The notes under the pieces are model-generated. The model ran no database searches, was not told the origin of the DNA, and saw nothing but the letters and a program-made list of their open reading frames with translations. A stretch of 48,195 nucleotides of DNA from Elusimicrobiota bacterium (lineage in GTDB: Bacteria; Elusimicrobiota; Elusimicrobia; Elusimicrobiales; UBA9959): positions 1 to 48,195 of the forward strand of contig JACRER010000033.1 of assembly GCA_016234365.1 (NCBI GenBank). The letters are read 5' to 3'. A program made the translations under genes and the position numbers. How positions within the stretch are numbered: the stretch's first letter is position 1; every line of letters starts with the position of its first letter. Shown here one piece after another: positions 2 to 4,681 of the stretch.

Positions 2-1012
2 GCGCTGGGCGAGGCGGCCAGGCTGGAAAGCGAGCTGGCCGTGAGCAAAGCGGTTTCCGACATGGCCGCGCAGGTGGCGCACGACATACGCTCGCCGCTG
101 GCGGCGCTGGGGGCGGCGGCGAAGGGACTTTCCGCCGACGCAGAGCAGCGCAAGCTTATAGAGGGGGCCGTGGGGCGCATGCAGGGCATAGCCGACGACC
201 TGCTGGCCCGGTACAGAGCGCCGGGCGTGTCCGCTAAGGTGGCGCCGGCTGTTACCGCGCTGGCCGGGCTGATAGAGCAGGTGGTGGCGGAGAAGCGCCT
301 GCAGCACCGGGACAGGGCCGGCGTGACTATAGGGTTTAATAGCGATGCCAACGACGTGAAAGCCCTGGTTGAACCCAAAGAACTTCAACGCATCATTTCA
401 AACCTGGTGAACAATTCCGTGGAGGCTTTTGTGGATGGCGGCGCGGTGGCGCTGTCGCTGGCCGCGGCCGGCGGCAGGGTTAAGCTCGCGATCAGCGACG
501 ACGGTAAAGGCATTCCGCCTGAAGTTCTTTCAAAGCTTGGGCAAAAAGGCGGAACGCACGGCAAAGCCGGCGGCACGGGCCTGGGGCTTTACCACGCCCG
601 GACCTATGCTGAAAGCCTGGGCGGCAGTTTTAATATAAAGTCCGAACTCGGCAAGGGAACCACCGTTACAGTTGAACTGCCGGCGGCGGGCGCCGTTACC
701 GGCCCGGTGTTCCTGCTGGATGACGATTTGCTGGTGCACATGAACTGGCGTACCGCCGCAAAGAAAGCCGGTGCCGAGCTGAAAGCCTGTAAAACCGCGG
801 CAGAACTGCACGCGGCGCTGGCCGGCCAGCCCAAAGAGGCGGCCATTTATATAGATTCCGAACTGGGGGGCGGCGTAAAAGGCGAAGCTGTGGCTAAAGA
901 GCTGCATGATAAAGGATTTCTTAATATAACCATGGCTACCGGCCATGCCGCGGACAATTTTGCCGGCCTCAACTGGCTTAAGGTGACCGGCAAAGAGCCG
1001 CCCTGGCTCTAA
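2..1012 (+). CDS. Hybrid histidine kinase with C-terminal receiver (5' end outside window)
   Basis: The frame is open to the left edge, so the N-terminal sensor part is missing; a GTG at 41 is only the first internal start-like codon. Numbered from that GTG, the H-box AHDIRSPLAAL places the phospho-acceptor His at residue 14. The N-box NLVNNSVEAF lies near 121-130, the G1 box DDGKGIP near 153-159 and the G2 box GLGLYHA near 180-186. From about residue 222 there is a receiver-like domain with an acidic pocket (LLDDD) and a candidate phospho-Asp at 272 in IYIDSELGG, followed by a Thr-containing MATGH. It is therefore an autokinase with an attached receiver, either relaying or self-regulating. 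It lies directly upstream of the sigma-54 island, whose activator has a receiver and whose 59-aa protein shares the HDIRS core, so it is a plausible input kinase. That partnership is inferred. A terminator follows. Confidence 0.9.
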   Translation, partial: ALGEAARLESELAVSKAVSDMAAQVAHDIRSPLAALGAAAKGLSADAEQRKLIEGAVGRMQGIADDLLARYRAPGVSAKVAPAVTALAGLIEQVVAEKRLQHRDRAGVTIGFNSDANDVKALVEPKELQRIISNLVNNSVEAFVDGGAVALSLAAAGGRVKLAISDDGKGIPPEVLSKLGQKGGTHGKAGGTGLGLYHARTYAESLGGSFNIKSELGKGTTVTVELPAAGAVTGPVFLLDDDLLVHMNWRTAAKKAGAELKACKTAAELHAALAGQPKEAAIYIDSELGGGVKGEAVAKELHDKGFLNITMATGHAADNFAGLNWLKVTGKEPPWL

Positions 1013-1171: not shown

Positions 1172-1188
1172 TTGGCATAAAAATTGCT
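1172..1188 (+). promoter_or_regulatory. Sigma-54 (-24/-12) promoter
   Basis: TTGGCATAAAAATTGCT has GG at 1174-1175 and GC at 1186-1187, separated by exactly 10 nt as the sigma-54 consensus requires. The predicted start is near 1198. It drives the 1267-1824 gene. The sequence from 1172 to 1210 matches 3443-3481 at 30 of 39 positions, so the similarity runs past the promoter into the first transcribed bases. Confidence 0.85.
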
Positions 1189-1825: not shown

Positions 1826-2005
1826 TCAGGCGGCCTTGGCCAGGGCGGCCAGGGCATTGGAGATCTCTTGCGCCGCGGCGGTCATGAGCGCCAGCATCTC
1901 TTTCTTCTCGCCGGAGGAGCAGTCCTTGTAAAGTTCCGCCGCGCTCTTGAGGCTGGCGCATTTGGAGCGGATGTCGTGAAGTAGTTTGGAAGAATCCTGC
2001 GTCAT
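1826..2005 (-). CDS. 59-aa histidine-containing helical-hairpin protein (stand-alone DHp/HPt-like)
   Basis: This small gene starts with an ATG that overlaps the stop of the sigma-54 activator (ATGA, 2002-2005), so it is translationally coupled to it. The product is predicted to form two helices joined by a short CSSGE turn. Helix 1 contains LLHDIRSKCASLKSA, which resembles the H-box of the kinase at 2-1012 (VAHDIRSPLAALGAA), with His10 as the candidate phosphorylated residue. Helix 2 is Ala/Leu-rich. No ATP-binding domain is present, so it cannot be an autokinase. It could be a minimal phosphotransfer or dimerisation module that passes phosphate to the activator's receiver or holds it off. 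The start, stop and H-box resemblance are seen; the function is inferred. Confidence 0.7.
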   Translation of the reverse strand: MTQDSSKLLHDIRSKCASLKSAAELYKDCSSGEKKEMLALMTAAAQEISNALAALAKAA

Positions 2006-3351
2006 TTAATGGTCCCCCGTCCGTTTTCCTGCCTGCGCAGCGAAGCGTAAAGCAGCCGCGTGGAAATTTTCAGTTCGGTCATGGTCCTGGTGCGCACGCC
2101 GCCGGTTTCGGCGAGGCTGCGGGCTATTACCTGGTCCGCCACTTTGTCCAGGGCGGCTTCCAGCCCGCGGGCTAGCGCGTCGGAGTAGACGTCGTCCAGG
2201 CCGCCGCCGCCGGCCGCGCGCCGGGCAGGCTGGCCCTTGAGGTGCTTTGCCACCGTCTCCAGGCCCACGCGGCCTTCCGCGCCGCTGGAAAGCAGGTCTA
2301 TGAATTTTTTAAGCTCGCGCACGTTGCCCGGCCAGGCGTAGTCCAGCATGCGTTCGCGCGCCTCGGCCGTGAACGACAGGCGCCGCCCGCCTTTCATAAA
2401 ATGCTGCGCCAGCAGCGTTATGTCTCCGGGCCGCTCGGCCAGCGGCGGCAGGTTCACCGTGCAGCCGTGCACGCGCTGGAACAGGTCGAAGCGCATTTTG
2501 CCGCGGGCTATCAGGTCCTGCGGGTCTTCCAGCGTGGCGCTGATGATGCGGAATTCGGAGCGCTCTGGCTTTTCCGAACCGAGCGGGTAAAAGGAGCGCT
2601 CCTCTATGGCCTTCAGCAGTTTCATCTGCATGTTGAGGCTCATGGTTCCTATCTCGTCGAGGAACAGCGTGCCCTTGTGCGCCTCCAGCAGGCGGCCCGT
2701 GCGGCCGTCGGCGGCGCCCGTAAAGGCGCCCTTGCGGTAGCCAAACAGTTCCGCCTCCAGCAGGTCTTGCGTGTAGGCGGAGCAGTTAATGGCTACGAAC
2801 GCGCCTTCCCGGCCGGAGCGCTCGTGCAGCACCTTGGCCAGCGAGGTCTTGCCGGTGCCCGACGGGCCGAGCAGGAGGATGGGCAGTTCCGTGGGCGCGT
2901 ATTTGAGCGCTTCGGTTATCATGGCGCGCGTGGGGGCGTCGCCGGTAACAAAGGCCGAGCCGAACACGTCGGCCGCGTCGGCGGCCCGGCGGCCGCGGAC
3001 GAACTTGGCTATGATCTCGGCTACGTTGGATTCCTCGTTGCCCTTGGCGTAAAAGTCGCGCGCGCCCAGTTCGTAGGCGCGGTCTATGATCTCCTCGGAA
3101 TCGGAGCTGGATACCACCACCGCGTAGACGCCTTTGGCGGCCGCGGCGGCTATGGCCTTCAGGCCGGAATAGTCGTCGCCCGGGCCCAGCATCAGGTCGA
3201 AGAAGCCTATGTCGTAGCGGCCCGTCTCAAGTTTCTTGAGCGCGGTCTTCAGGTTGGCGGCCAGGTCCACGTTGTGCTCCGCCAGGCGCGAGGCCATCAC
3301 CTTCTGGGCCAGCTTGTCGTCTTCCAGTACGAAAATATTAAGTTGATCCAT
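2002..3351 (-). CDS. Sigma-54-dependent response regulator (receiver, AAA+, Fis-type HTH)
   Basis: This 449-aa NtrC-class activator uses ATP hydrolysis to open sigma-54 promoters. An N-terminal receiver (about 4-118) has the acidic pair ED/D near 10-12, phospho-Asp52 in FFDLMLGP, and Lys103. The AAA+ domain has Walker A GPSGTGKT (162-169), the sigma-54-contacting GAFTGA loop (208-213) and Walker B TLFLDE (228-233). PLAERPGDI and WPGNVREL follow, as in the family. The C-terminus (about 405-445) is a diverged Fis-type helix-turn-helix (LAETGGVRTRTMTELKIS). It is divergent from the micropeptide/RpoN-like transcript and overlaps the 59-aa gene by 4 nt. With two sigma-54 promoters close by, it is probably their dedicated activator. 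Confidence 0.93.
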   Translation of the reverse strand: MDQLNIFVLEDDKLAQKVMASRLAEHNVDLAANLKTALKKLETGRYDIGFFDLMLGPGDDYSGLKAIAAAAAKGVYAVVVSSSDSEEIIDRAYELGARDFYAKGNEESNVAEIIAKFVRGRRAADAADVFGSAFVTGDAPTRAMITEALKYAPTELPILLLGPSGTGKTSLAKVLHERSGREGAFVAINCSAYTQDLLEAELFGYRKGAFTGAADGRTGRLLEAHKGTLFLDEIGTMSLNMQMKLLKAIEERSFYPLGSEKPERSEFRIISATLEDPQDLIARGKMRFDLFQRVHGCTVNLPPLAERPGDITLLAQHFMKGGRRLSFTAEARERMLDYAWPGNVRELKKFIDLLSSGAEGRVGLETVAKHLKGQPARRAAGGGGLDDVYSDALARGLEAALDKVADQVIARSLAETGGVRTRTMTELKISTRLLYASLRRQENGRGTIK

Positions 3352-3442: not shown

Positions 3443-3460
3443 CTGGCACAAAAATTGCTC
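3443..3460 (+). promoter_or_regulatory. Sigma-54 (-24/-12) promoter for the micropeptide and RpoN-like gene
   Basis: CTGGCACAAAAATTGCTC is a near-perfect sigma-54 promoter with GG at 3445-3446 and GC at 3457-3458, 10 nt apart. The predicted start is near 3469. The first ORF downstream is the 33-aa micropeptide (3504), then the RpoN-like gene (3623), so the sigma-54-like gene is itself under sigma-54 control. Confidence 0.88.
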
Positions 3461-3503: not shown

Positions 3504-3605
3504 ATGAAACTTTTCAGCGAACGGTTCTCCTGGTTCTACTCTTACTTCGGGTGGGGTTTTTCTTGCGGCGGTTTTGGCGGTTATCCGGGCGGTTATAACG
3601 CGTAG
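3504..3605 (+). CDS. 33-aa Gly/aromatic-rich micropeptide
   Basis: This is the first ORF after the sigma-54 promoter, with GGAGG at 3495-3499 correctly spaced before the ATG. The peptide begins MKLFSERFSWFYSYFGWGF and ends in a Gly/Tyr repeat-like tail (GGFGGYPGGY) with a single Cys. It has a basic start and no clear signal cleavage site. It stops 17 nt before the RpoN-like gene. It could be a leader peptide controlling translation of the downstream gene, or a small membrane or surface-active peptide. No family is recognised. The evidence is the ribosome binding site, the position in the transcript and the unusual composition. Confidence 0.6.
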   Translation: MKLFSERFSWFYSYFGWGFSCGGFGGYPGGYNA

Positions 3606-3622: not shown

Positions 3623-4681
3623 ATGAAATTCAAGCTTCAGGCCTCTTCTAAATTAAAAACTTCGGCCGCGCTGCGCGGCGCGCTCAAGCTGGCCCGGCTG
3701 GCGGAGATGCCGGAGGAAGAATTCGAAAAACTCCTGAAGGAAATGGAGAGCAACCGGTTCTTCGAACTGCTCAAGGCCACGGGCGCGGTGAACCTGGCGG
3801 AATTTCCCTCCGCGCGCTACGCGGCCCGCCGCTACGCCGGCTACGGGCTCAAACTTTCCGCCGGCGGCCTGCCGGAACTGGCCGATGGCTCCGGCGACCT
3901 GGTGGCGCTGATGCAGCGCGTGGGGGTTGAAAAATTCGAGGCCTGCTTTTTGAAGGACGCCGCCATGAGCGACGTGGAGCGCGCCGAGGAATGCGACATC
4001 ACCGTGGCCGACTCGGCCCGGCTGCGCGAATTCGTGGACAGGGCCTTCATCCAGGCCGAGTTCGAGGGCGCCCCCGAAGCCCCCGCCGCGGCCGTCTACA
4101 GCGCTGTGGCCGGCATAGAGATAGAAAACGGCGCGCCGGTGCTGGCCTTCTTCAACCGCGGGATCTGGAAGGGCCGCTACAAAGTGGACCAGGAAAAACT
4201 GTCCGCCGCCACGCAAGGCCTGCCCGAAGCCGAGCGGCAGGGCGTGGAAAAACTGCTAAAACGCCTGGAGTTCGCCGACAAGCGCAAAACCACCCTGTAC
4301 CGCGCGCTGGAGGTCCTTATGAACGTGCAGGCCGACTACCTGCGCACCGGCGAGCCGGGCCGCCGCCGGCCGCTCTCGCAGAAGACGCTGGCTAAAAGCC
4401 TGGAAGTGCATACCAGCGTGCTCAACCGGCTGGTCTCCAATAAGTCCGTGCAGCTGCCGTGGGGCACCGAGGCCCCTATGGACGCGCTGCTGCCCAGCTC
4501 CAAAGCGGTTAACCTGGAGCGGCTCTATGCCCTGGCGGCGGAGAACCCCGCGCTCAGCGACGAGGCCCTGCGCCGCGCGCTCAAAGCCGGCTACGGCGTG
4601 GAACTGTCGCGCCGGTCCGTGGCCCAGTACCGCAAAGACCTGTCCCTGGCCGCCTCCGGGCGCCGGGGGGAAACGCGTTGA
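3623..4681 (+). CDS. Divergent, short sigma-54 (RpoN-like) factor
   Basis: At 352 aa this is well below the usual 430-500 aa of RpoN. Residues 1-50 resemble sigma-54 region I (LQASSKLKTS, then a Leu-rich helix and MESNRFFELL, like the LEENPLLE end of region I). The acidic region II seems absent. Residues 215-281 match the core-proximal helix and HTH (VHTSVLNRLVSNKSVQLPWG, like [20 protein letters not shown]). Residues 306-340 match the C-terminal domain, including an RpoN-box-like SRRSVAQYRK (329-338; the family has ARRTVAKYRE). The FELKYFF segment that normally follows the HTH is replaced by an unrelated stretch. It is probably a sigma-54 paralogue with altered promoter or core interaction, though it may be the only sigma-54 of the genome. 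It is transcribed from a sigma-54 promoter behind a micropeptide. Confidence 0.88.
   Translation: MKFKLQASSKLKTSAALRGALKLARLAEMPEEEFEKLLKEMESNRFFELLKATGAVNLAEFPSARYAARRYAGYGLKLSAGGLPELADGSGDLVALMQRVGVEKFEACFLKDAAMSDVERAEECDITVADSARLREFVDRAFIQAEFEGAPEAPAAAVYSAVAGIEIENGAPVLAFFNRGIWKGRYKVDQEKLSAATQGLPEAERQGVEKLLKRLEFADKRKTTLYRALEVLMNVQADYLRTGEPGRRRPLSQKTLAKSLEVHTSVLNRLVSNKSVQLPWGTEAPMDALLPSSKAVNLERLYALAAENPALSDEALRRALKAGYGVELSRRSVAQYRKDLSLAASGRRGETR

Follow-up and report, generated by a model that had tools for sequence, protein, structure and literature searches.

A stand-alone DHp-like hairpin encoded behind a sigma-54 activator in Elusimicrobiota: a candidate minimal histidine phosphotransferase

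What could a protein of 59 residues that resembles nothing more than the dimerisation hairpin (DHp) of a histidine kinase be doing directly behind the gene for a sigma-54 activator? The question arises from a 48,195-nucleotide stretch of DNA, here called the window, from an Elusimicrobiota bacterium, a member of an almost uncultured phylum. The small protein (HP), the activator (ACT), and a hybrid kinase at the start of the same contig (KIN) are laid out as follows.

1826..2005, minus strand: HP, 59-aa DHp-like helical hairpin protein with invariant His10 (codon 1978-1976)
2002..3351, minus strand: ACT, response regulator with receiver, sigma-54 AAA+ domain (GAFTGA), and C-terminal HTH (Pfam)
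2..1012, plus strand: KIN, 5'-truncated hybrid histidine kinase with DHp (HDIRSP), HATPase_c, and terminal receiver, at the contig start (G000:C12)
701..1009, plus strand: terminal receiver domain of KIN, with Asp in YIDSELG and Lys in GKEPPW

An earlier note on this DNA had described an open reading frame at 1826-2005, which is indeed present, and to which we add that it lies on the minus strand; its product is MTQDSSKLLHDIRSKCASLKSAAELYKDCSSGEKKEMLALMTAAAQEISNALAALAKAA (59 aa). The note's remark that the frame begins inside the activator's stop agrees with the coordinates: the HP start ATG (2005-2003) shares bases with the ACT stop TGA (2004-2002) in an ATGA junction (ATTAAATGAC), and most close relatives share this overlap, in which HP starts at -4 relative to the end of the ACT stop; in the others the start falls between roughly -50 and +9. 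Its motif HDIRS-K-x-A-x-L reads HDIRSKCASL in HP, the counterpart in the kinase at 2-1012 (plus strand) being HDIRSPLAAL, and the absence of an ATPase domain was likewise borne out, none being found in the 59-aa frame by sequence or by Pfam. HP is single copy in the source genome. Across 59 genomes from the taxonomic family of the source, HP matches occur at 62-83% identity in about 30, together with a second group of paralogues at 32-53%, and a profile search recovered small-ORF homologues throughout one class of Elusimicrobiota; with one relative as query, the named relatives were Elusimicrobia/Elusimicrobiota MAGs. The family carries no existing annotation. Differences among 23 relatives fall 73/32/298 on codon positions 1/2/3, indicating purifying selection at the protein level. 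A chance open reading frame is ruled out by the family matches, the class-wide profile homologues, and this codon-position pattern: HP is a real gene, conserved widely in Elusimicrobiota. One genome (G176) holds nine HP matches, and at locus L089 (5547-5990) a tandem pair of HP genes lies behind one activator.

A single-sequence AlphaFold2 model of HP consists of two helices, 3-26 and 31-58 (pLDDT 90.5), and hhalign aligned the HP profile with the DHp of the partner kinases, histidine on histidine (probability 86.6, E 4.5e-6). In a Foldseek search of the PDB the HK853 DHp ranked first without reaching significance (E 1.2), a hairpin alone scoring poorly, and sequence searches of the PDB with HP and HP profiles gave no significant match. 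Against HisKA (PF00512), HP scored 13.4 bits, under the Pfam gathering cut-off of 26.9; weak HisKA matches were seen in 7 of 22 family members (best E 0.004), and NCBIfam returned weak CreC and ChpT matches. HP shares with HisKA a conserved histidine in the first of the hairpin's two helices and lacks an HATPase domain within the same protein, so that a functional HisKA kinase was rejected. Membership of the Hpt family was also rejected, Pfam Hpt (PF01627) matching none of the 22 members. The earlier reading of HP as a DHp-like hairpin is thus upheld by the modelled hairpin, the profile match to the kinase DHp, and the invariant histidine, and on this modelling HP is a hairpin akin to the kinase DHp.

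Loss of His10 among homologues had been named beforehand as a finding that would refute the idea, and the outcome was the opposite. His10 is the sole invariant column in an alignment of 22 HP family homologues, and it is kept in 65/65 ACT-linked or ACT-fused copies, two of these rows being one gene seen in the overlapping loci L063 and L128. Among all 86 HP profile matches the histidine is absent from eight. These comprise fragments or disrupted copies (the second fragment of L103, and the copies at L127 and L113), one truncated copy entered twice in which His is replaced by Arg (L063/L128), and three diverged orphans with no activator nearby (L119, L122, and L123).

ACT matches Pfam Response_reg (4e-10) and Sigma54_activat (1e-53), and conserves the acidic pocket, phospho-acceptor Asp, S/T, and Lys of its receiver as well as the GAFTGA loop. 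The C-terminal 103 aa of KIN gave a weak Pfam receiver match; its AlphaFold2 model (pLDDT 93.4) matched PDB receivers by Foldseek (E 7e-5, prob 1.0), and Asp, Thr, and Lys are conserved, so on the modelled structure this domain is a receiver. Positions 1-230 of the window and of locus L154, both contig starts, hold nearly identical kinase sequence, and the assembly therefore probably broke within a repeated hybrid-kinase gene.

Genomic linkage ties HP closely to ACT. HP lies directly behind ACT in 63 of the 86 profile matches and is fused to it in two more (a 439-aa frame in L105 and a 458-aa frame in L117), where HP occupies the place of the HTH; a further eight matches are at contig edges, and two loci classed as 'other' in this tally (L101 and L124) are preceded by an activator that is cut or split. 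The gene immediately ahead of HP at L090 encodes a hybrid kinase with two terminal receivers, and this is the single such case with an intact HP; L103 is arranged similarly, but its HP contains a stop. In the second paralogue group the ACT-HP pair is usually convergent with such a hybrid kinase. Within the family, HP occurs in 34 of 59 genomes and ACT in all 34 of those (Fisher p 1e-15), and the kinase receiver is present in 30/34 HP-positive versus 6/25 HP-negative genomes (p 6e-7), p-values that overstate independence because the genomes are related; in one further genome (G017) ACT is cut by the contig end. Furthermore, Pfam Hpt found no protein in 11 genomes with both HP and the kinase (G034, G006, G010, G011, G015, G018, G019, G020, G022, G056, and G058), several of which are 98-100% complete. 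The source genome has two ordinary Hpt proteins elsewhere than the HP locus, and the absence of Hpt is thus not general.

We consider it probable that HP acts as a minimal histidine phosphotransferase consisting of the DHp alone, with phosphoryl groups passing from the hybrid-kinase Asp to HP His10 and on to the activator Asp. Two HP copies would form a four-helix bundle. The hybrid kinase would autophosphorylate its DHp histidine and hand the phosphoryl group on to the Asp in the receiver at its own C-terminal end, from which His10 of HP would accept it and deliver it to the Asp of the ACT receiver; phosphorylated ACT may then turn on sigma-54 promoters, among them those of the associated S54 gene and of neighbouring exported proteins. 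Known phosphate chemistry runs from His to Asp and on to His, with no direct His-to-His step; a transfer straight from the kinase DHp to HP is therefore not expected, and the kinase terminal receiver is the obvious candidate for donor, as the ACT receiver is for acceptor. HP could also serve as a funnel from several sensors to one activator, because one or two HP/activator pairs per genome (1-2 activators) would serve 1-6 hybrid kinases (1-6 kinase-receiver matches). Of the three functions that the earlier note had offered, it is this phosphate shuttle that genome context favours, through the intact kinase terminal receivers, the Hpt-free genomes, the linkage and fusion of HP to ACT, and the kinase linkage at L090; locking of the receiver and heterodimerisation with the kinase drew no positive support. 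Against a phosphotransferase stand four HP-positive genomes in which no KIN receiver was detected (G045, G054, G005, and G007), the Hpt proteins of some genomes, the source included, which could serve the kinases, and the fact that Spo0B and ChpT retain a second, degenerate ATPase-like domain whereas HP is a bare 59-aa hairpin.

The relay phosphotransferases known are described as belonging to one of two kinds, Hpt proteins and pseudo-kinases (PMC9981736), and those pseudo-kinases that have been studied retain a degenerate second domain (PMC3433190). Hpt (PF01627) has the same relay role as that proposed for HP, but forms a monomeric bundle of helices with about 84 positions in its model, whereas HP is a DHp-related two-helix hairpin. 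The DHp of KIN-type HisKA kinases resembles HP in its HDIRS H-box, its hairpin, and the histidine-on-histidine profile match; HP differs in having mostly Lys, Arg, or Gln at the Pro position of the kinase H-box and in being free of the catalytic domain. Comparable to HP in its proposed function is Spo0B, a DHp-derived histidine carrier of proposed histidine-kinase descent that acts between receivers, ahead of an output regulator, and in which dimerisation is needed to make the four-helix transfer site (PMC12826061). Spo0B, however, has a C-terminal second domain and is served by a free Spo0F receiver, whereas HP is a hairpin alone, with a putative intermediate receiver fused to the kinase and a sigma-54 activator as its presumed output; the SPOB_a/SPOB_ab Pfam models matched none of the 22 HP members. 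The CckA-ChpT-CtrA pathway has the layout proposed here, from hybrid kinase through a DHp-type phosphotransferase to a regulator (PMC9981736), and the ChpT model gave weak matches in nine HP members (best E 0.001). ChpT nevertheless carries a degenerate Bergerat (ATPase-like) domain, which binds no ATP (PMC3433190), and HP has none. With a DHp hairpin bearing an invariant histidine, and with an upstream receiver (KIN terminal) and a downstream receiver regulator (ACT) that co-occur, HP by analogy fits the pseudo-kinase phosphotransferase class minus the second domain; lacking the C-terminal degenerate ATPase-like domain, it would work like Spo0B or ChpT and not be either.

Alternatively, HP may be a free DHp phosphatase that strips phosphate from the ACT receiver and so resets the switch. 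The isolated DHp domain of EnvZ acts as a phosphatase, HP is DHp-like and co-translated 1:1 with ACT, and most copies of the main group read HD at His/+1. HisKA phosphatase chemistry requires an acidic residue at +1, however, and at this position, which kinases fill with an acidic residue, HP proteins carry D, T, N, K, A, S, R, or E; the second paralogue group has T, N, K, A, S, or R there, while the histidine stays fixed. A variable +1 beside a fixed histidine is what would be expected if HP needs neither autokinase nor phosphatase chemistry. A phosphatase would also leave unexplained the absence of Hpt from genomes with these hybrid kinases, and we regard it as unlikely.

A non-catalytic inhibitor or scaffold, binding the ACT receiver or forming a mixed dimer with the kinase DHp, is quite unlikely. 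Sda is a model for such a partner, HP is a small helical hairpin, and in the fusions it sits where the HTH of ACT would be; the three orphans, with YG, YC, and CS in place of His (L119, L122, and L123), retain the subsequent NSKC..LRAAS surface. Yet the presence of the histidine in every ACT-linked copy is hard to square with a pure binder. The orphans themselves are possibly decoys or inhibitors. Very unlikely is a structural ACT subunit that controls oligomerisation and has no phosphate role, for although linkage to ACT is strict and two fusions exist, the intact HP of L090 lies directly behind a hybrid kinase and the histidine is invariant.

Returning to the phosphotransferase, we lean, with some caution, towards a broader proposal: that HP represents a new class, an autonomous DHp hairpin of ~60 residues without a second domain. 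On this view HP takes the place of Hpt in Elusimicrobiota, gathers the signals of several hybrid kinases into one NtrC-like activator wired to a short sigma-54 of its own, and in two fusions has supplanted the DNA-binding domain of that activator. Searches of an open-access library turned up no description of stand-alone DHp proteins. If the proposal is true, a dimerisation hairpin by itself suffices for relay phosphotransfer, HP is the smallest natural relay part for structural work, and an unannotated class of small genes exists in two-component circuits. HP would in addition predict a full sigma-54 pathway of sensor, relay, activator, sigma factor, promoters, and exported targets, and the window holds candidates for its output.

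1173..1188, plus strand: -24/-12 sigma-54 promoter TGGCATAAAAATTGCT, before an exported protein; one of six matches in the genome
1267..1824, plus strand: exported protein of 185 aa with a C-terminal hydrophobic segment; no Pfam match
3444..3459, plus strand: -24/-12 sigma-54 promoter TGGCACAAAAATTGCT, between ACT and S54 and directed to S54 (genome motif scan)
3504..3605, plus strand: small ORF MKLFSERFSWFYSYFGWGFSCGGFGGYPGGYNA, 33 aa, Gly/Tyr-rich, between S54 and the sigma-54 promoter, which it follows immediately
3623..4681, plus strand: S54, short RpoN-like sigma-54 of 352 aa (Pfam Sigma54_DBD, 3.9e-17)

The motif TGGCAYNNNNNTTGCW has 6 matches in the 2.7-Mb genome versus 1 in the control, and every one reads TGGCAYAAAAATTGCT. 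Two are in the window (upstream of the exported protein at 1267 and in the ACT-S54 gap), three are on contig G000:C35 (L154; 1182-1197, 2801-2816, and 3781-3796), each before an exported protein and the first behind a second hybrid kinase, and the sixth lies at a contig end (G000:C3, 61-76). The six near-identical promoters have the look of a very small sigma-54 regulon devoted to exported proteins, of which the 185-aa protein is a probable member. The short sigma-54 gene directly follows HP in many class-level loci and is divergent from ACT in the source genus. A promoter site is present in the ACT-S54 gap at 14 of 22 loci examined, from which positive autoregulation of S54 appears likely. 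Pfam sees only Sigma54_DBD in the S54 of the window, the N-terminal and core-binding parts being too diverged for a match. The source genome has two short RpoN-like genes, S54 and a second one (L130 / L156, G000:C86:17575), with open frames of about 360-370 aa. Downstream of most of the six promoters are genes for proteins with a signal peptide, about 185-238 aa long; two of these proteins end in (I/V)SEWANS.
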